Source of the DNA: Sinorhizobium numidicum
Lineage (GTDB): Bacteria > Pseudomonadota > Alphaproteobacteria > Rhizobiales > Rhizobiaceae
Length of the DNA stretch: 64,000 nucleotides
Direction: 5' to 3'
Assembly (NCBI RefSeq): GCF_029892045.1
Contig: NZ_CP120368.1
Coordinates: 1,672,001 to 1,736,000 of the forward strand
Shown piece after piece: positions 1,983 to 14,174 of this stretch. Both the position numbers and the translations under genes were made by a program. The notes below the pieces were generated by a model. That model worked only from the letters and a program-made list of their open reading frames with translations. It did not search any database and had not been told where the DNA came from. Within the stretch, counting starts at the first letter, position 1. Every line of letters begins with the position of its first letter.

Positions 1983-3815
1983 TTACCGCTGATGCACATA
2001 AGTGCCGGGCGCATCATCGATCGGGGGATAGCCTTTTTTGGGGGCGCCGATGACCGGAGGTGCCAGCCGTTCCGGCGCTGAATGGCCGGCGAGCCACTCG
2101 ACCCAGTCCGGCCACCATGAGCCGTCCTTCGATGTGGCTGCCGCGATCCATTCCTCCGCACTGGCGCTCGACTCGATCTCACGTGTCAATGCGATGCGAA
2201 AAGCTCTCCCGGGATGGTCTGGCTCGGAGACGATGCCGGCATTGTGGCCCCCGCTTGTCAGCACAAAAGTGACGTCGGTGTCGGTGAGATAATGTATCTT
2301 GTAGACGGAATGCCACGGTGCGACATGGTCTCGCTCCGTCCCGACGACGAACATGGGAACGCGGATGTTCTGGAGGTGAGCCGGGCGTCCGTCAACGATG
2401 AAACGGCCGGCGGCAAGTTCGTTGTCGAGATAGAGGCGCTGCAGATATTCCGCATGCATCCTGTAGGGCATATGGGTCGGGTCCGCGTTCCACGCCATGA
2501 GATCGGTCATCGGCTTGCGTTCACCGATCAGGTAGTCGTGGACGAGTCGCGACCACACGAGATCGTTGGTGCGCAGCAGTTGAAATGCCCCCGCCATCTG
2601 ATCGGCGGAAAGACAGCCACTATGCCACATCATGCTGTCCAGAAAATGCAGCTGGCTATGATCGATGAACAGCGCCAGTTCGCCAGGTTCGGAGAAGTCC
2701 GTCTGGGCGGCAAACAGCGTAACCGAAGCCAATCGCTGGTCTTCGGTGCGCGCCATCGCGGCCGCCGCGATCGCTAGAAGCGTCCCTCCTAGACAGTAGC
2801 CCGTTGCGTGGATCTTGCGTTCAGGAACGATGGCGCTGACGGCATCAAGCGCGGCCACGATTCCCAACCGCCGGTAATCGTCGAGAGTGAGGTCTCGGTC
2901 CTTCGCGGTCGGATTGCGCCAGGAAATGCAGAAAACGGTGTGGCCCCGCGCGACGAGATAGCGGATCAGGGAATTATGCGGTGAAAGGTCGAGGATGTAG
3001 TATTTCATGATCCAGGCCGGCACGATCAGGATCGGCTCGGCCAGGACCTCCTCCGTCGCGGGCGCATACTGGATCAGCTCGATCAGGTGGTTTCGGTAGA
3101 CGACCTTTCCAGGCGTGGCCGCGATGTCGCGACCTACGCGGAACGCTTCCGTACCGACCGGGGGTTGCCTCATGGCCAGCCGGCCGACGTCTTCGAGCCA
3201 GTTGCGGAATCCCTGCGAGAAGTTCGCCCCGCCCGTCTCCATTGCCTTGTGGATCACTTCCGGGTTGGCGAAGGGAATGTTGGACGGCGAGAACACGTCC
3301 AGCCACTGGCGCGCGGTGAAGGAGACGACGTCCTCGTGGTGCGGTGTCATGCCGGGGACGTTGCGCGTAACATTGTGCCACCATTGCTGGCACAGCAAGA
3401 AAGCCTGCGCCCAGACTGTGTAGGGTTGCCTTTGCCAGCACTCCGCGCGGAACCGGTTGTCTCCCGGCAGCGCCTCGATGCAGGGCGGCGCGTCCGGACG
3501 CGTGGCGGCTGCAGCCATGTAAGTCAGCAGAAGGCCCCAATTCTGCCCTGCCTTATCGGCAAGTTCCATGCGCTTGCCCGGAGCCGATGCGAGGTGGATC
3601 GACCAGTCGAAAAAGGCGAGCACCAATGCGGCAGGTGAAAGACCTCCCGTCGCCATTGCACTCAGAGCCTCACGCATCCGATCGATCGCCCGGAATGCTT
3701 CGCCGTCCGAGCCCTCGTCTTCCAATGGCAGCGCCGATTGAGCCGCTATCGAGTTGGCCGACCCTGCTTCCGTCGCGCGGTCTGCGGCCAAAACTGATCT
3801 GTCACACGTCTCCAT
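1983..3815 (-). CDS. phaC: Class I-type poly(3-hydroxyalkanoate) synthase
   Basis: A 610-residue cytoplasmic PHA polymerase that joins hydroxyacyl-CoA monomers into granule polyester. The N-terminal PhaC domain (about 95-260) is followed by an alpha/beta-hydrolase core with the lipase-like box GYCLGG at 339-344, the catalytic Cys being 341. Candidate Asp496 (in RDHVAPW) and His524 (in GGHNAG) complete the triad. The start is the ATG at 3815, preceded by GGAG seven bases upstream; the open frame continues further upstream but lacks family similarity there. Length is normal for class I enzymes. A PHB-depolymerase-like esterase lies nearby at 5237, and a methyltransferase between them is transcribed in the same direction as phaC. 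Confidence 0.93.
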   Translation of the reverse strand: METCDRSVLAADRATEAGSANSIAAQSALPLEDEGSDGEAFRAIDRMREALSAMATGGLSPAALVLAFFDWSIHLASAPGKRMELADKAGQNWGLLLTYMAAAATRPDAPPCIEALPGDNRFRAECWQRQPYTVWAQAFLLCQQWWHNVTRNVPGMTPHHEDVVSFTARQWLDVFSPSNIPFANPEVIHKAMETGGANFSQGFRNWLEDVGRLAMRQPPVGTEAFRVGRDIAATPGKVVYRNHLIELIQYAPATEEVLAEPILIVPAWIMKYYILDLSPHNSLIRYLVARGHTVFCISWRNPTAKDRDLTLDDYRRLGIVAALDAVSAIVPERKIHATGYCLGGTLLAIAAAAMARTEDQRLASVTLFAAQTDFSEPGELALFIDHSQLHFLDSMMWHSGCLSADQMAGAFQLLRTNDLVWSRLVHDYLIGERKPMTDLMAWNADPTHMPYRMHAEYLQRLYLDNELAAGRFIVDGRPAHLQNIRVPMFVVGTERDHVAPWHSVYKIHYLTDTDVTFVLTSGGHNAGIVSEPDHPGRAFRIALTREIESSASAEEWIAAATSKDGSWWPDWVEWLAGHSAPERLAPPVIGAPKKGYPPIDDAPGTYVHQR

Positions 3816-4124
3816 CGCGAAACTCCATTCAGCCTTGCCGCCGCAGTCGTTGATGCCGATTAATGCCGATCGCCGACGGGGAATAACGAAGTGTCCTTGA
3901 TCGGGGCAGAAGACGGAAGTTTTACTATTTATGATGGTGCGCTGCTTCTCAGGTCTGTGCAAGTCAGGCTTTTCGGGACTTCCATAAGTGGGCCTCGAAG
4001 GGCAGGTTCGGGCCGCCTTGCGCTGTAGGACGGTCACATCAACTTCCGCAGAAGAGCTCTCATCCCGAAAACTCGTCAGCGTTCGGGAGGCGCGTGGCGC
4101 TGTCTGGCTTATGGTGCGAATGTC

Positions 4125-4940
4125 TCAGAAGCCATATCGAACTAGGCGCCCCATACGATAGGGTGTCAGGATGGTGCTGAAGAGCTGCAGCGCGATTTGG
4201 GCGGGCGGTGACATCCGCGCCACCTGTCCGATGTCCCAATCCGAACGATCCTCGATGAGCTTTAGCCTCGGTACCCGCCGCTCTACCTCTGCCGGGTCGT
4301 CGAGCGCCCAATGGAGACAGGCACCGGTGGCGCGGATCGCCGGATTGAAGCGCAGCAGTCGGATTGCGAAGCTGCTATAGGCATCGAAGGCTATCTCGCC
4401 CGAGGGAAAGTGACCGGCGATCCGCCGCAGAACCTGCGAAACCTGGTATTCCTTCAGATAAGGCAGAACGCCCTCGGCGACGATCATGGCCGGCCTGTCG
4501 GCGGGAAGTTTCGCAATCCACCCGTGCTCGAGGATCGAGCCGGCAATCATCGTGCAGTCCGCACGGTCGGGGTAGATCTGCTGACGCAAGGAGATGACAT
4601 CGGGGAAATCCAGTTCGAACCAGCGAACTCCCGGCCCCGGATCTATCCGGAAGATGCGACTGTCGAGGCCACAGCCGAGATGGAGAACAGTCGCCTCCGG
4701 GCAGCGCTGAAGGAATGCCTGCGTCCAGCGATCAAGCATATAGGCGCGCAGCGCGATGCCGATGGTCATGTCGTGACCAACCTTAAGGTGCCGACTGTCC
4801 TGATCGATACGGCGCAATGCATCTGCGGCGAAGCGGTCGCAAAGCAGCGAATCCGGCATGGCGCTTTCGGCTGCCTTGGCTTGGAGCGTGATCAGCAGGG
4901 TTTCCCTTGCGCCGGTGAGGCGGACTTGCTCCGGTTGCAT
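4125..4940 (-). CDS. Class I SAM-dependent methyltransferase, TcmP/LCM type
   Basis: A 271-residue protein of the leucine-carboxyl-methyltransferase/TcmP-like family. These enzymes transfer a methyl group from S-adenosylmethionine to a carboxyl or hydroxyl group. Visible features are the glycine-rich SAM motif LHLGCGLDSR near residue 90, an acidic strand end (WFELDFPDV) near 115, and VAEGVLPYL near 155, all typical of the family. The ATG at 4940 is preceded by GGAGG five bases upstream; a TTG four codons earlier is less likely. The substrate is unknown. It sits about 300 bases upstream of phaC on the same strand, but linkage to PHA metabolism is not shown. Confidence 0.75.
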   Translation of the reverse strand: MQPEQVRLTGARETLLITLQAKAAESAMPDSLLCDRFAADALRRIDQDSRHLKVGHDMTIGIALRAYMLDRWTQAFLQRCPEATVLHLGCGLDSRIFRIDPGPGVRWFELDFPDVISLRQQIYPDRADCTMIAGSILEHGWIAKLPADRPAMIVAEGVLPYLKEYQVSQVLRRIAGHFPSGEIAFDAYSSFAIRLLRFNPAIRATGACLHWALDDPAEVERRVPRLKLIEDRSDWDIGQVARMSPPAQIALQLFSTILTPYRMGRLVRYGF

Positions 4941-8649: not shown

Positions 8650-10185
8650 TCAGTCCAAAGAGCATATCGTCGGACCAAACGCCGCATCCGGATGCCGGCA
8701 AGGCACTAACCAGAGCCGCGTCGCGGGAAGGGCTCGGGCCCAAACGTCAATGGATGGGTCAGGCAGGTTCGCGGCAATTACGAGCAAGCCCGGACGCCCC
8801 AGCGCTGCGCGCAGGGCGGCAAGGCGGATACGTTCGGCATCCGATAGGTCCGCGGCCCCCTCGGCAATTCGACGGTCCAGACCGCCAAGACCCTCAAGGA
8901 TAGGTCCAAGGTTCTGTACGGCCAGTCTCTTGCAAATGGTCTCATCGGAAGGACGGTCCAACACGCCAAGCGTCAATGCACGCCTTATGCTTCCACGCAA
9001 AACCGCTGGCTTTGCACCAATGACGGCGACGCTGCGGCGCAGACTTCCCAATGTCAGCCGCCCGATCGGCTGCCCTCCGAGCGTAACTCCATCCACAGGC
9101 GCAACGTCGTGGCCGCTTAGGATGGGCACGATTGAAGATGCTGTTTCAGGGAGATACCCGTCTTCGCCCGGCCCCAACGTCAATGGGGGTATGCCGGTAA
9201 GCGTGAGAGCAAGCGACAGAGGACCTCTCCCTAGTCGAACGTCGCGGAAGGAATCGGTACGGAGAGGGCGGGCGAGAGCCGCTGCCAGCTTAGCATGTGC
9301 GGCGCGGAAGGCGGCGAAGTGGTTTACGACTCCCATTACCTGACGCAACGGATACAGCGAGAGACCAAGGGCCGCCAACGCTGCTGCGATAGTTCCCGAG
9401 GCCATCCCGGAATGCGATCCATAGATAAGGATGACCGCGGCGGCGATTCCGACTAGCGCCTCCGGCAGACCGTGCAGCAATTCGGCCAATGCGACCCGTT
9501 CGAGGGCCACGTGGCGCAAGGCAGCACTACGCTTCCTGATGAGGCGTAACTCGCGCGCGCGGCGCCCCAGCGCAGCCAGTTGCGGGGCGAGCGGCAGCCT
9601 TTCCGTCATGTCGGCCGCCAACTGCGCCCTACGTGCCCGCAACAGCCTGTGCGACGCCGTTAGAGTCTTGCCTCCAACCAAAAGTGCCACAAATGCCGCG
9701 GCCGTCATCACCAAGCCGGTCCACCCGAAAGGGGCCGCCAACCAGAACAACACGCCGATGGCGGCAGGCAATAGTGCGGCCGCTTGCACGAGCCGTGGCA
9801 AACCAAGACCCGGCCAATTCTTTAACGCAGCTAGGTCGCCGATAAACCGCATCGCCATGTGGCCAGTCCGTCGCTTCGTCAGTTCCGAGGCGGCGGCTCG
9901 ACTGGTATGGTCGAACAGAGCCAGGCGCACGTCACGGGCATAGTCCTGACCGAAATCTTCAGCCAGCGTCCTGAACAACGGGCGTAATGCGGCCATCGCC
10001 AACCCTGTGCCCGCTAACGCACAGAGCACGGAGGGTGGAATCTTCCCTGTCTCGTCGAGCCAGGAGAACGCCGCCCTTGTTGCGAAGGCGGTGGAGGCCA
10101 ATGCGACCGCCTGAGCGAGCGCCGCTCCGATCAGACCTGCGAGCAGTATCCGCCGGCGCCCGGAGAAGAGTAGCGGCGCGTTCAT
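8650..10185 (-). CDS. ABC exporter-like membrane protein with degenerate ATPase domain
   Basis: A 511-residue protein with an ABC type-1 transmembrane domain (five to six hydrophobic segments within about 10-290) fused to a C-terminal ABC nucleotide-binding-like domain (about 310-511). The ATPase motifs are eroded. The Walker A position reads GPGEDGYLPETAS and lacks the GKS/T. The signature reads LSDAE instead of LSGGQ/E. Walker B reads LLVIAANLP with no catalytic Asp-Glu. The frame is open and codon use normal, so this looks like a maintained pseudo-ATPase rather than decay. The ATG at 10185 overlaps the previous gene's TGA (ATGA), so translation is probably coupled. Substrate unknown; it might pair with an active subunit elsewhere or work without ATP hydrolysis. 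Confidence 0.75.
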   Translation of the reverse strand: MNAPLLFSGRRRILLAGLIGAALAQAVALASTAFATRAAFSWLDETGKIPPSVLCALAGTGLAMAALRPLFRTLAEDFGQDYARDVRLALFDHTSRAAASELTKRRTGHMAMRFIGDLAALKNWPGLGLPRLVQAAALLPAAIGVLFWLAAPFGWTGLVMTAAAFVALLVGGKTLTASHRLLRARRAQLAADMTERLPLAPQLAALGRRARELRLIRKRSAALRHVALERVALAELLHGLPEALVGIAAAVILIYGSHSGMASGTIAAALAALGLSLYPLRQVMGVVNHFAAFRAAHAKLAAALARPLRTDSFRDVRLGRGPLSLALTLTGIPPLTLGPGEDGYLPETASSIVPILSGHDVAPVDGVTLGGQPIGRLTLGSLRRSVAVIGAKPAVLRGSIRRALTLGVLDRPSDETICKRLAVQNLGPILEGLGGLDRRIAEGAADLSDAERIRLAALRAALGRPGLLVIAANLPDPSIDVWARALPATRLWLVPCRHPDAAFGPTICSLD

Positions 10186-11228
10186 GCCGCACTCGCAACC
10201 CGTTGCGCCCCGACCTGCGCGGCAAAACGGTTCGCTTCCGCCGGATCCAAAAGCTGTGATCGATTGATGACAGGAACGCCCGTGGCGGCAAGCGCCTCGG
10301 CAGAAGCCATCGGTGAGCAAGACAGAAGGCCGGTCAGCGCCAATGGATGTACCCCCTGGCGGGCCAACTCCGCCACACCGCCGGCCGCCGCCACAGCGTC
10401 CCCACAGGCAAAGATGACACCTGATGCCCATGTCCGGAATCCTGGATCAGCGATCAATGCCGCCGTCTCCCGCTGGAAAATGCCATCCGCAATCTCCATT
10501 ACTGCTAAGTCGCAGCCCGCATCTTCGGCGGCGGCCAGCAGGTCCATGATTCCCTGCGCTACGCGCGCCAACGGCTCGCGGTAGGTCGTCACCATTCCTG
10601 CATCGGTGAAATCGGCGACGAAGGCTGAGCCGGCATCCTGATAGTGGTTAAAGTCGCCAAATGATCCCGTCCCCGTACCCTTCAAGGTCGCCACGCGCCA
10701 TCCCGCCAGCGTCAGACCGTGCGAAAGCGCGACTGTCGCCGTCGTCTTGCCGGAATTCATTGCGGTACCCAAGACGATGATTACCGGCAGCGCGGGCGTG
10801 GCCGTCGCGCGGGGCAGGGCAAAATTCATCGTATCCAGCACCTGCCCATCGGCAGCGGTTATGCGTCCGAGCGGCTGCACCCGCGTCGGTGGCTTAATTC
10901 GATCATTGCGGTGCATCATTCGCCCCAAGCATCCACCGCCCGCCAGCATATCACAGCCCTTGGGATCGATCTCGGCAACCCCCTCGAACTGGTCCGGGGC
11001 ATAACGCGCACCGCAGGGCATGACGATGAGATCGCCGGGGTAGAGGGTCGAGGGCCGCCCTGACGCGAGTTGCATCCGGCCGTGCTGTCCGATGGAAATC
11101 ACCTGCCCAAGGATGAGCTGTCCGGGGACCACCTCGTCCCACCGCTGGTCAAGATCGGACGCAAGGGCACGGGTCGCACGCCGGGTGGAGAAGGCCCATT
11201 TAGCACGGGCGAAGAGATGCTCATTCAT
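10182..11228 (-). CDS. P-loop NTPase-like protein, DUF1611/MobB-like
   Basis: A 348-residue protein. The first 140 residues are an unrecognised domain with several Gly-rich turns and Cys at 72, 92 and 100. The second half starts with a hydrophobic strand and a Walker A motif, GTAMNSGKTT at 154-163, followed by ATLKGTGTG and AVMEIADGIFQRET. This resembles the P-loop half of DUF1611 or MobB-like proteins, but the assignment is tentative. Some DUF1611 members (DgcN) are reported as D-glutamate N-acetyltransferases, so an acyl-transfer role is one option. It is the middle gene of a tight operon, overlapping its upstream neighbour by 8 bases and its downstream neighbour by 4. Confidence 0.6.
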   Translation of the reverse strand: MNEHLFARAKWAFSTRRATRALASDLDQRWDEVVPGQLILGQVISIGQHGRMQLASGRPSTLYPGDLIVMPCGARYAPDQFEGVAEIDPKGCDMLAGGGCLGRMMHRNDRIKPPTRVQPLGRITAADGQVLDTMNFALPRATATPALPVIIVLGTAMNSGKTTATVALSHGLTLAGWRVATLKGTGTGSFGDFNHYQDAGSAFVADFTDAGMVTTYREPLARVAQGIMDLLAAAEDAGCDLAVMEIADGIFQRETAALIADPGFRTWASGVIFACGDAVAAAGGVAELARQGVHPLALTGLLSCSPMASAEALAATGVPVINRSQLLDPAEANRFAAQVGAQRVASAA

Positions 11229-12078
11229 AGTCGTCTCCTTTGGTTATTGACAATCCGCAGACCTGGGCAGCGAGGCCAGCGGCCTGGGCGCATTGGGGGA
11301 AATCGTGGCCGCAGCCGGGTAGAACCGTAAAGCTCAGGGTCGGAACGATCCCGCGCGCGTGCGCAGCGCTCTTAAAGGCAGCGGCAAATGCATGGGCACG
11401 AGCCACGCGATCCCGGCCTTGCAATGCATCTATGCGTCGGTCCCGCCGGAGGGCGGGGTCTCGCAGGCGATCATCTTCGCCTACGTAGATTCGAAGCGGG
11501 AGTTTCAGGAAGGCTGAAAGCTGCGCCAGCATCAAACCCGCGATATCCGATTCGCCCGGGGGAACCATGTTGGCTTCAGTTCGCAGTCCCATGGGGAACG
11601 GCACGCTATCGTCCGGCAAGCAATACCAGCCGGCAGCAGCCACATGGAGCGCCGCCACATGCTGCGGATAGAGCATCGCAAACCGGTGCGCGAGTTGCGC
11701 GCCACCTGAAAAGCCGAAGAGGTCAACTTTCCTCGTATCCGCCAGCCCCATCGCTTGCAATCGGGCGAGAAGCGCCAGCACAGGCTTATCTGGCCGCGCG
11801 CCGCCGATCCGCTGAAATACTGGCCAGTCGCCTGGTGGAAATCGCGGAACGATCAACACCCGCCCCGCGGCGGCGGTCAGCGGAGCAAATGCTGTGGAGA
11901 GTGCATTCGCGGCGCGCGAGATCCCGTGTAAGGCTAAAAGCGGAGGCACCGAAGCCTGGGGGTTAGCCGGCACAAAAACGTCTGCACGCAGGCGTCCCTC
12001 TCGCAATCGTACCCACAGCCGTGTCGTGGTGGGCTTCTCTCTCCCGGCCAGCACCTCCGGATTCGCAATGTTGGGCAT
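11221..12078 (-). CDS. Alpha/beta hydrolase, esterase/peptidase-like
   Basis: A 285-residue alpha/beta hydrolase, first gene of the three-gene leftward operon. The HGISR turn near 51-55 fits an oxyanion region. The nucleophile elbow GFSGGA places Ser124 as the catalytic serine, with an acidic residue in YVGEDDRLRD (about 202-206) and His258 in GCGHDF. No signal peptide is evident. The ATG at 12078 is preceded by an AGAAGGG tract at normal spacing. It resembles PHB-depolymerase/polyester-esterase and dienelactone-type hydrolases. The coupling to a P-loop protein and a membrane ABC-like protein suggests processing of a small molecule or peptide before export, but this is inference. Confidence 0.75.
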   Translation of the reverse strand: MPNIANPEVLAGREKPTTTRLWVRLREGRLRADVFVPANPQASVPPLLALHGISRAANALSTAFAPLTAAAGRVLIVPRFPPGDWPVFQRIGGARPDKPVLALLARLQAMGLADTRKVDLFGFSGGAQLAHRFAMLYPQHVAALHVAAAGWYCLPDDSVPFPMGLRTEANMVPPGESDIAGLMLAQLSAFLKLPLRIYVGEDDRLRDPALRRDRRIDALQGRDRVARAHAFAAAFKSAAHARGIVPTLSFTVLPGCGHDFPQCAQAAGLAAQVCGLSITKGDDYE

Positions 12079-12756
12079 CGCGGCCCTTCTCCCGTTGAAA
12101 TCGGAAGTAGAACGGGCAAGCCCCCCGGTTATTCCATGGAACTTTTATGACTTCGTTTCTCATCCTCGTCGCCGAAGGCAGGGGAATGCATGGGATATCG
12201 GACAGTTCGCGTGCTCCTTAATTCGGCTACACAGCGGACGGCTGCACTGCTGGCGCGGTGGCGACTGCGAAGTTTCGTGTCGCACCAACTGCTCACAGCA
12301 TCTGGAGGCCACAGCTATCGCATATCGGACACGGGGGCGGTCTCCTGTCCGCAAGCCGTGACGGCTCGTCTGTAGTGATTCGGGTCGATCAGGAACTGTA
12401 GGCCTGCTGAGCCTGGGGGAACGTCGCCAAGGGGTGGAGAGCGGAAGTTCACTACCAAGGCGCGGGACGACTGCTTAGCGCCAAGAAGCAGTCGCACGGG
12501 CCGGAGCGACTCTTATCGGTCCTTCGCGAGCTAGGTTCCGCGAGATCCTACTGCCTCCCACAATTATCTAGACTCTCGCGCAATAGGTGCCACATCATGG
12601 AAACATGATCGGCGGGAATACTGCGGCGTCGAGATGATCCGGCATGTCTCCGCAGCGCTTGCGGGCATGCGAATGGCCACGAGGACTGCCAGTTTGCTCG
12701 AAGATATGAATGAGCTTCGCCCTTGCGCAGGGAGAAGCTCATATCGCGTGAGACGC
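12079..12756. other. Intergenic region with a hairpin near its right end
   Basis: Nearly 680 bases without a supported gene. Short frames on the minus strand around 12315-12742 have no recognisable domain. The only clear structure is the hairpin at 12711-12741, annotated separately. The promoter of the hydrolase operon should lie at the left end, but I cannot assign -35/-10 boxes with confidence. Confidence 0.5.
12711..12741 (-). terminator. Hairpin terminator downstream of the NDH-2-like gene
   Basis: TGAGCTTC and CCCT pair with AGGG and GAAGCTCA (one G/A mismatch) around a five-base loop. It lies 16 bases past the stop of the leftward oxidoreductase gene. There is no strong T run, but position and stem length fit a transcription end. 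Confidence 0.6.
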
Positions 12757-13962
12757 TTACAGATCGGTCACACGCTCCGGATCAGCTGAGGCCAGCGCCG
12801 CGGCACGCTCGGCCTTCGGCGGATATATCCACACCCTATTGATCTCCTGCTTGGTCTTCTTGGCGCCCTCGCCGACCATCTCGACCTTGCGGTCCCAGCC
12901 GCGGGTGAAGATTGCGCCGGCTTCGCCGAGGTCGAGGCAGGTGACGTAGGCCTTCTGGTGATAGCATCGGGTCGGCACACCCAGCAGTTCGGCGGCTGCG
13001 TTGTTGCCCGCGAAGGCGCCCATGCGGGTGGCGTGCTGGCACGACATCAGCACATAGTTGCCGACGTCATCGCATGCGGCGCGCGCCGCGTCGCCGGTGG
13101 CGAAGACGCCAGGCACGGACGGCACGCGCAAGCACTTGTCGACGAGCAGCCGGTCAAAATTGTCACGCGCGGCGGGAATTTCCATCGTCAGCGGATTGGC
13201 GCGAAAGCCTGCCGCCCAGATCACGGTCGCGGCTTCGATGCGCTCGCCGGTGCTCAGGCTGACGCCGGATTTGTCCAGCGATACGACGCCGGCATTGAGC
13301 CGCGTCTCAACGCCGACGCTGCGCAGTGCATCTTCAATGATAGGGCGAGGAAATTCACCCATGTCCGGGGCGACTGCAGGGCTACGATCGACGATAATGA
13401 CGCGCGGTTTGGCTTTTTTGTCGAAGATGGTCCGCAGGCGTGAAGGCATCTCCGTTGCCGCCTCGATTCCTGTAAAGCCGGCCCCTGCAATAACGACGGT
13501 GTCGCGTGCCTTTGAGGCGGGCATAGTCGCAAGCTTATGCAGGTGGCGGTCGAGGGCGATTGCGTCATCGAGATTGTCGATGCTGAAGCCGTGTTTTGCG
13601 AGGCCGGGAATATTCGGGCGGAACAGCCGGCTACCGGTTGCGATCACCAGGCGATGATAGGAAAGGGACTTGCGCTCCCCCTTGGCATTGACGACGTCCA
13701 CGGCGCGGGTTTTGGTGTCGACCGCTTCGACGCTGCCTTGCACGTAGACCACGTTGACGGCGTCAAGCACCTCCTTCAGAGGCGCGGTAAGGGTCTCGGG
13801 CTTCGGCTCATAAAGCCGAGGGCGGATCACCAATATCGGCTGAGGAGCTACCAGCGCGATCTCAAGTTCTTCGGGCGAAACGTCTTCGATGTCGCGCAGG
13901 CGGGCTGCGGAAAGCGCGGCGTACATGCCGGCGAAGCCGGCGCCTACAATAACGAGTCTCAT
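12757..13962 (-). CDS. NDH-2-like FAD-dependent NAD(P)H dehydrogenase
   Basis: A 401-residue pyridine-nucleotide-disulphide-type oxidoreductase. Motifs in order: FAD dinucleotide motif GAGFAG at about 7-12, RPRLYE loop, ATGSR near 115, second dinucleotide motif GAGFTGIEAA near 163-172, and the FAD-binding FATGDAA near 290. This architecture is that of type II NADH dehydrogenases, which move electrons from NADH to quinone at the membrane without proton pumping. A C-terminal membrane helix is not obvious, so a soluble electron-transfer role remains possible. The ATG at 13962 is chosen because it is the start of the FAD motif region and has GGAG just upstream; the open frame continues 52 codons further without similarity. 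Confidence 0.8.
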   Translation of the reverse strand: MRLVIVGAGFAGMYAALSAARLRDIEDVSPEELEIALVAPQPILVIRPRLYEPKPETLTAPLKEVLDAVNVVYVQGSVEAVDTKTRAVDVVNAKGERKSLSYHRLVIATGSRLFRPNIPGLAKHGFSIDNLDDAIALDRHLHKLATMPASKARDTVVIAGAGFTGIEAATEMPSRLRTIFDKKAKPRVIIVDRSPAVAPDMGEFPRPIIEDALRSVGVETRLNAGVVSLDKSGVSLSTGERIEAATVIWAAGFRANPLTMEIPAARDNFDRLLVDKCLRVPSVPGVFATGDAARAACDDVGNYVLMSCQHATRMGAFAGNNAAAELLGVPTRCYHQKAYVTCLDLGEAGAIFTRGWDRKVEMVGEGAKKTKQEINRVWIYPPKAERAAALASADPERVTDL

Positions 13963-14174
13963 GTTACTCCACTCCAGGGTTTTAGTTTCAAACGCCCGCG
14001 CGTCATCGTTGCCGCTCTTGATGAGAGATGACGATGCGGATCCGTGAAGCGAGATCGCGATGGCGCTCATCACCGACTCCAGGCCGGTCACAACCGGCCT
14101 CAGCACAGGCGCGATCAACCCCGCCAGCCAGATGGATTGTTGCCGATGTCCAGGTAAACAGTTTCGTTGGAAAT

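Follow-up and report, generated by a model that had tools for sequence, protein, structure and literature searches.

How is a conserved exporter used once its engine is dead? The question is raised by a three-gene operon in a 64,000-nt stretch of the Sinorhizobium numidicum genome (contig NZ_CP120368.1, positions 1,672,001 to 1,736,000; hereafter the window), which encodes an alpha/beta hydrolase (HYD), a P-loop protein (PLP) and one half of a type I ATP-binding cassette (ABC) exporter whose nucleotide-binding domain (NBD) has lost its catalytic residues. The original prediction, made from the letters alone, had described three leftward genes overlapping by 8 and 4 bp, and this observation was confirmed in coordinates, strand and overlaps. 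Its interpretation was partly supported: the conservation of the trio and the loss of the ATPase motifs were borne out, whereas a rule that such exporters need two competent sites did not hold and a role of PLP as energiser of the exporter is unlikely. The promoter and the regulon had been overlooked. The operon probably belongs to an ECF26-type regulon, and the exporter ATPase of its family has been inactivated at least twice; what is new is the ECF26-type promoter ahead of HYD-PLP-ABC, an operon of which no description was found in the open-licence literature searched. We tentatively regard the trio as the arm for biosynthesis and export in an envelope-stress module under ECF26-type sigma factors, a reading to which we give slightly less than even chances. 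The features are listed below; the start of the ABC protein is an ATG within a longer, mechanically defined ORF.

8650..10185, minus strand: type I ABC exporter half with a dead NBD, 511 aa
9274-10185: transmembrane domain (TMD) of the ABC protein, residues about 1-304
8671-9255: pseudo-NBD of the ABC protein, residues about 311-505
10182..11228, minus strand: PLP, 348 aa, with a beta-rich N-domain and a SIMIBI-type domain
11221..12078, minus strand: HYD, 285 aa, of the LpqC / poly(aspartic acid) hydrolase-1 type
12110..12135, minus strand: ECF26 (RpoE6-type) promoter, GGAATA-N15-CGTTC, starting 57 bp before the HYD start

The TMD of the ABC protein matches PF00664 in Pfam with 52.5 bits (cut-off, 28), while no Pfam match to ABC_tran was found in the protein; in the predicted structure the TMD has six long helices and the NBD fold is kept. 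Thus, the architecture of an ATP-driven type I exporter is present, and its Walker A, signature and Walker B residues are not. Alignment with intact relatives bears out the predicted losses, in which the Walker A Lys has become Ala, LSDAE stands in place of the signature LSxGE and the Walker B Asp-Glu pair is Ala-Ala, all in a frame with zero stops. A homolog in S. kostiense (91% identical) has identical losses, and across relatives the pseudo-NBD retains a GSLRRALTLG segment without the residues for hydrolysis. A total of 51 homologs were found, 41 dead and 10 intact, although four of the dead ones (P0028, P0031, P0035 and P0045) have a precomputed ABC_tran domain; when 30 of them were aligned with the window protein, identity to it was 36-91% for dead and 26-37% for intact members. 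Close homologs with an intact Walker A, which the original prediction had named as a sign of simple decay, were not found, the copies with 91% and 86% identity being dead as well. The ratio of nonsynonymous to synonymous substitution rates (dN/dS) between the window and S. kostiense is 0.07 for PLP, 0.24 for HYD and 0.22 for the whole ABC gene (0.16 for the TMD, 0.24 for NBD residues 351-475 and 0.43 for the first 50 residues of the dead domain). Judged by these substitution patterns, the dead domain is under purifying selection. Decay or a sequencing error as the cause of the motif loss is ruled out by the conservation, the dN/dS values and the shared dead motifs.

The origin of the dead state was examined on a tree of 70 aligned TMDs, 49 with a dead and 21 with an intact NBD (three of the 73 aligned rows, namely copies of P0001 and L050 and one fragment, were left out). 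Here, intact means that the Walker A Lys and the Walker B Asp are present; P0047 was counted as intact although its Walker B Glu is absent, and L057, which passes by its letters (GADARAKT, DM), was set dead by hand since its P-loop glycines, signature and Glu are lost. The tree requires two changes, one for a 46-row clade including the window and one for the group L060-L062, although state changes on a tree cannot tell loss from gain. A single origin of all dead copies was rejected by the approximately unbiased (AU) test (p-AU 0.011), with long branches (L060-L062 and P0051) involved. The phylogeny therefore suggests that the ATP sites of this family were inactivated at least twice. None of the 21 intact members has Gln at the position that we take, by comparison with canonical sequences, to be the Q-loop.

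The TMD and the NBD fold are shared with type I exporters such as MsbA, CydDC and P-glycoprotein, from which the window protein differs in having no Walker A, Walker B or signature, and its family in lacking the Q-loop Gln even where the sites are intact. That such exporters need two competent sites, as first proposed, is not so: one degenerate site is common among heterodimers (PMC7756269). A homodimer of the window protein would have zero competent sites. It could instead form a heterodimer with an ordinary, ATP-competent exporter half that is encoded at another place, an alternative that we consider doubtful but not to be dismissed lightly. It would fit the retained TMD and NBD fold, the best NCBIfam match (CydC, itself half of a heterodimer, with 59.8 of 329 bits and hence far below the cut-off) and a peptidase-domain ABC transporter 2.3 kb away in L113. 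However, the weak half of known heterodimers usually retains Walker A, and no close family member with intact motifs was found in the five dead-copy genomes searched (the best 150 candidates being scored in three of the five), where the next ABC hits are general exporters with 24-33% identity. Nor was a second conserved ABC gene noticed in the 32 loci described next, in which no systematic search for one was made.

These 32 loci were found through PLP and comprise the window, four named genome loci and 27 loci of further genomes. They are not independent (L050 and L051 contain the same ABC gene, and L069 and L070 overlap), loci of about 4 kb cannot show distant neighbors, and five of the ABC queries used for counting were drawn from the loci themselves. 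A family ABC gene lies downstream of PLP, on the same strand and within 350 bp, in 25 of the 32 (neighbors scored by tblastn, E 1e-6); nearby are HYD in 13, a subtilase (S8) in 11, an extracytoplasmic function (ECF) sigma factor in nine and, no farther than 2.2 kb away, a histidine kinase in eight. Many copies have as neighbors the ECF sigma and an S8 that contains an Asp-rich tract. A family ABC gene next to PLP was not found at L049, L059, L063, L068, L069 and L070, and in L058 an Asp/Asn hydroxylase and HYD are inserted between PLP and ABC. From the other side, a search with the window ABC protein (E<=1e-15, at most the best three candidates per genome scored) gave 13 places in 12 of 385 genomes of the class, and all 13 are co-directional with a PLP gene immediately upstream, at most 114 bp away, which tightens the link between PLP and ABC; two of the 13, in G000 (the window genome) and G548, are dead copies. 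Separate homologs without conserved order had been named as a possible refutation of the trio, and the order proved to be kept on both sides: the trio is a real system. An ABC family that keeps its NBD fold, has lost catalysis at least twice and always follows PLP at these places offers a way to test whether the fold of a type I exporter can be of use with no ATPase of its own. In addition, S8 and PLP are adjacent and co-directional in L049, L066 and L068, where no family ABC gene (L049 and L068) or a weak match of 61 bits (L066) was found; S8-PLP may be a smaller variant.

Counting strong E-values only, PLP occurs in nine of the 297 family genomes and 20 of the 385 class genomes (weak matches, left out, account for four of 13 and three of 23 matched genomes, respectively). 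Eight records of the plasmid collection matched PLP, and five were opened. Plasmids of P. liaowanqingii, P. albus and Tritonibacter carry HYD-PLP-ABC with a dead ABC, flanked by S8 and a sigma factor; an anti-sigma was matched in the latter two, and P. liaowanqingii has a hypothetical protein there. A Microvirga plasmid has PLP and a weak hydrolase match 0.9 kb on, with no family ABC gene found. A Sulfitobacter plasmid has the order Asp/Asn hydroxylase-HYD-PLP-ABC with an intact ABC; this plasmid (L115) is conjugative, and a TIGR02466 protein also precedes the operon alongside the Asp/Asn beta-hydroxylase gene. Close copies in Inquilinus (ABC, 86%) and Brenneria (PLP, 74%) suggest horizontal transfer. 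Secreted-looking Asp-rich proteins with an EF-hand-like stretch were seen directly upstream of HYD-PLP-ABC or PLP-ABC in L114 (4480-4932, plus strand; stretch recognized by eye) and L047 (8571-8999, plus strand; weak Pfam match). A RiPP-like (ribosomally synthesized and post-translationally modified peptide) precursor was also sought: a scan of small ORFs beside the operon gave, among those listed, mostly antisense and low-complexity families.

The window promoter, GGAATAACCGGGGGGCTTGCCCGTTCT, lies just before HYD at 12110-12135 and has the GGAATA / CGT form of the ECF26 regulon. GGAATA-N15-CGTY has this one match in the 64-kb window (0.08 expected from shuffles), while GGAATA-N15-CGTYCT has three in the 6.7-Mb genome versus two for a reversed control; because the genome count is close to the control, the location and not the abundance is the evidence for a promoter. 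Within 300 bp upstream, 13 of 31 operons have the motif, and four scrambled patterns precede none of the 31, some PLP starts in this count being alignment starts. It begins 56-58 bp before HYD in five of the 13, and L004, L006, L007 and L118 have it at the same position as the window. L048, L051, L064, L069, L070 and L116 were omitted from the count; upstream sequence is absent in L048 and L064, L051 has the motif, and L069 and L070 lack it, as does L116 in its 13 kb.

RpoE6 promoters of the same form were mapped in S. meliloti by rapid amplification of cDNA ends (5'-RACE) or RNA-seq, and the gene for RpoE6, an ECF26 sigma, is divergent from a serine protease gene there, as described in PMC6180224. 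In S. kostiense, the 6 kb downstream of the trio contain an S8 gene and, divergent from it, an ECF sigma gene, as well as genes for an anti-sigma, an (SSSN)n protein and DUF6065. Relatives of these genes are found in the S. meliloti plasmid locus L117 together with the exact promoters published for SMa0142, SMa0144 and SMa0148 (PMC6180224); therefore, SMa0148 most likely corresponds to DUF6065 and SMa0146 probably to the (SSSN)n protein. The two loci thus share the promoter class and the S8, sigma, anti-sigma, DUF6065 and (SSSN)n genes (SMa0142-SMa0148 in S. meliloti), and they differ in that the 13 kb of L117 lack HYD-PLP-ABC, which S. kostiense has. Secreted-looking (SSSN)n-repeat proteins are encoded in the RpoE6 locus at 3865-4323 (minus strand) of L117 and 13612-14001 (plus strand) of L004. 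Nothing was found in the open-licence literature on DUF6065 or on exporters with inactive NBDs. According to PMC6180224, the functional role of the RpoE6 regulon was undefined in 2018, and HYD, PLP and ABC, as three concrete proteins, now offer a route to its substrate and signal.

The motif was present in none of the seven kinase-linked operons tested (L044-L047, L052, L053 and L060); therefore, two regulatory wirings seem to exist, one through the ECF26 motif and one linked to a kinase. The frequent linkage to anti-sigma or histidine kinase genes could also mean that the ABC protein is a non-transporting membrane receptor or regulator, sensing for example a product for the sigma/anti-sigma or kinase system, and a fold kept after hydrolysis was lost would suit a binding role. 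However, intact members (L044-L046, L052 and L053) share this linkage, and therefore sensing does not explain the motif loss; we regard such a receptor as improbable.

PLP carries its SIMIBI-type domain at residues about 145-343, with the P-loop GTAMNSGKTT, in which Gly and Lys do not vary across 34 rows. One alignment took in the window sequence and 51 of the 120 listed homologs, out of 725 found. The fold of PLP comes closest to CTP synthase and dethiobiotin synthetase, on a par with other SIMIBI proteins, and signal recognition particle (SRP) GTPases are among the matches. Profile matches were obtained to 1dts (E 2e-5, a short stretch away from the 1dts P-loop) and 3fgn (E 0.022, at the P-loop). 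Compared to dethiobiotin synthetase, CTP synthase and TM0796 (2g0t, a putative nucleotide-binding protein), which share the P-loop fold, PLP has an extra beta-rich N-domain and only 14-20% identity. Relatives are labelled "DUF1611 domain-containing" or "dethiobiotin synthase" in source annotations; DUF1611 (PF07755) scores 20.3 bits on PLP itself, below the Pfam gathering cut-off of 25, and some homologs hold a precomputed PF07755. PHROGs gave no match for PLP, and in the open-licence literature nothing was found on DUF1611 with subtilisin and an ABC transporter, and no bearing on this was seen in the DUF1611 papers listed. Two PLP paralogs stand in tandem in L070 (1393-3659).

In the original prediction PLP was to energize or gate the exporter. 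As a surrogate motor it would dock on the pseudo-NBD and power the TMDs through an ATP cycle of its own, for which its position directly upstream of ABC at every ABC-side place, its invariant P-loop residues while the ABC sites died at least twice, and the SRP GTPases among its fold matches can be cited; SRP GTPases dock at membranes. On the other hand, its nearest folds are soluble synthetases, and PLP adjoins intact-motif ABC genes in 11 of the 32 loci (intact-site neighbors are seen in L044-L046, L048, L050-L056 and L115), where a second motor is unneeded. We therefore consider this motor unlikely, marginally more so than the receptor.

HYD is a homolog of the LpqC / poly(Asp) hydrolase family. 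Ser124, His258, Asp203 and Asp207 are invariant in 10 rows, and HYD has in common with LpqC-type polyhydroxybutyrate (PHB) depolymerase and poly(aspartic acid) hydrolase-1 the catalytic Ser/His residues and the GWY...P and QGxxRxARA segments, differing from them in having no signal peptide by eye.

As the biosynthesis and export arm of such an envelope-stress module, the operon might work as follows. A signal would free the ECF26 sigma from its membrane anti-sigma and lead to transcription of HYD-PLP-ABC and S8, and in several species presumably also of DUF6065 and of a repeat protein, rich in Asp or in Ser/Asn, that looks secreted; at other loci a histidine kinase/response regulator pair would replace the sigma wiring. 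At the level of sequence, the form, position and linkage of the ECF26 promoter are demonstrated, and transcription of the window operon itself is what we infer. Judging from fold and homology, PLP may activate a carboxylate or a comparable group at the cost of ATP, in the fashion of CTP synthase or dethiobiotin synthetase, and HYD may cleave or edit acidic amide or ester bonds of the same sort. The ABC protein, as a homo- or heterodimer, would bind or pass the product at the inner membrane, with a pseudo-NBD that, by model and alignment, has retained its fold without the residues for hydrolysis. In short, we think that PLP and HYD modify, and ABC binds or passes, an acidic envelope product. 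A bolder version, which we hold to be unlikely, is that this class of ABC exporters lost ATP hydrolysis more than once and yet remains in use since the ATP is consumed at the preceding step. PLP would chemically activate a cargo that HYD edits or releases, and modification of this acidic cargo would drive a group-translocation-like passage through a hydrolysis-dead ABC dimer.

In the window genome itself, no close dedicated RpoE6-type sigma was found; the best relative is 40% identical, and other ECF sigmas are present. The only close S8 relative covers residues 216-487 (86% identical) and lies on another contig (8916-9731, minus strand, of L081, G000:C1:1808000-1826000), where the truncated catalytic domain is joined behind a glycosyltransferase-like frame (by eye). 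Within the genus, the operon is present in one of five genomes. The missing sigma, the truncated S8 and this patchy presence might suggest an operon that was acquired horizontally and is now decaying in the window, which is very improbable given three open frames, an intact promoter, dN/dS values of 0.07-0.24 and dead motifs common to the 46-row clade. The window genome has thus kept the operon and its promoter without the usual partners. Other ECF sigmas may read it; targets of RpoE2 and RpoE6 overlap in S. meliloti, as reported in PMC6180224.

Near the truncated S8 of L081, ABC, HlyD-like and RTX-like frames were seen 4-8 kb away. In the window, an esterase of the PHB-depolymerase family (PF10503; 5162-6331) and a long ORF resembling by eye a polyhydroxyalkanoate synthase (1983-4037) lie 2-7 kb from the operon.
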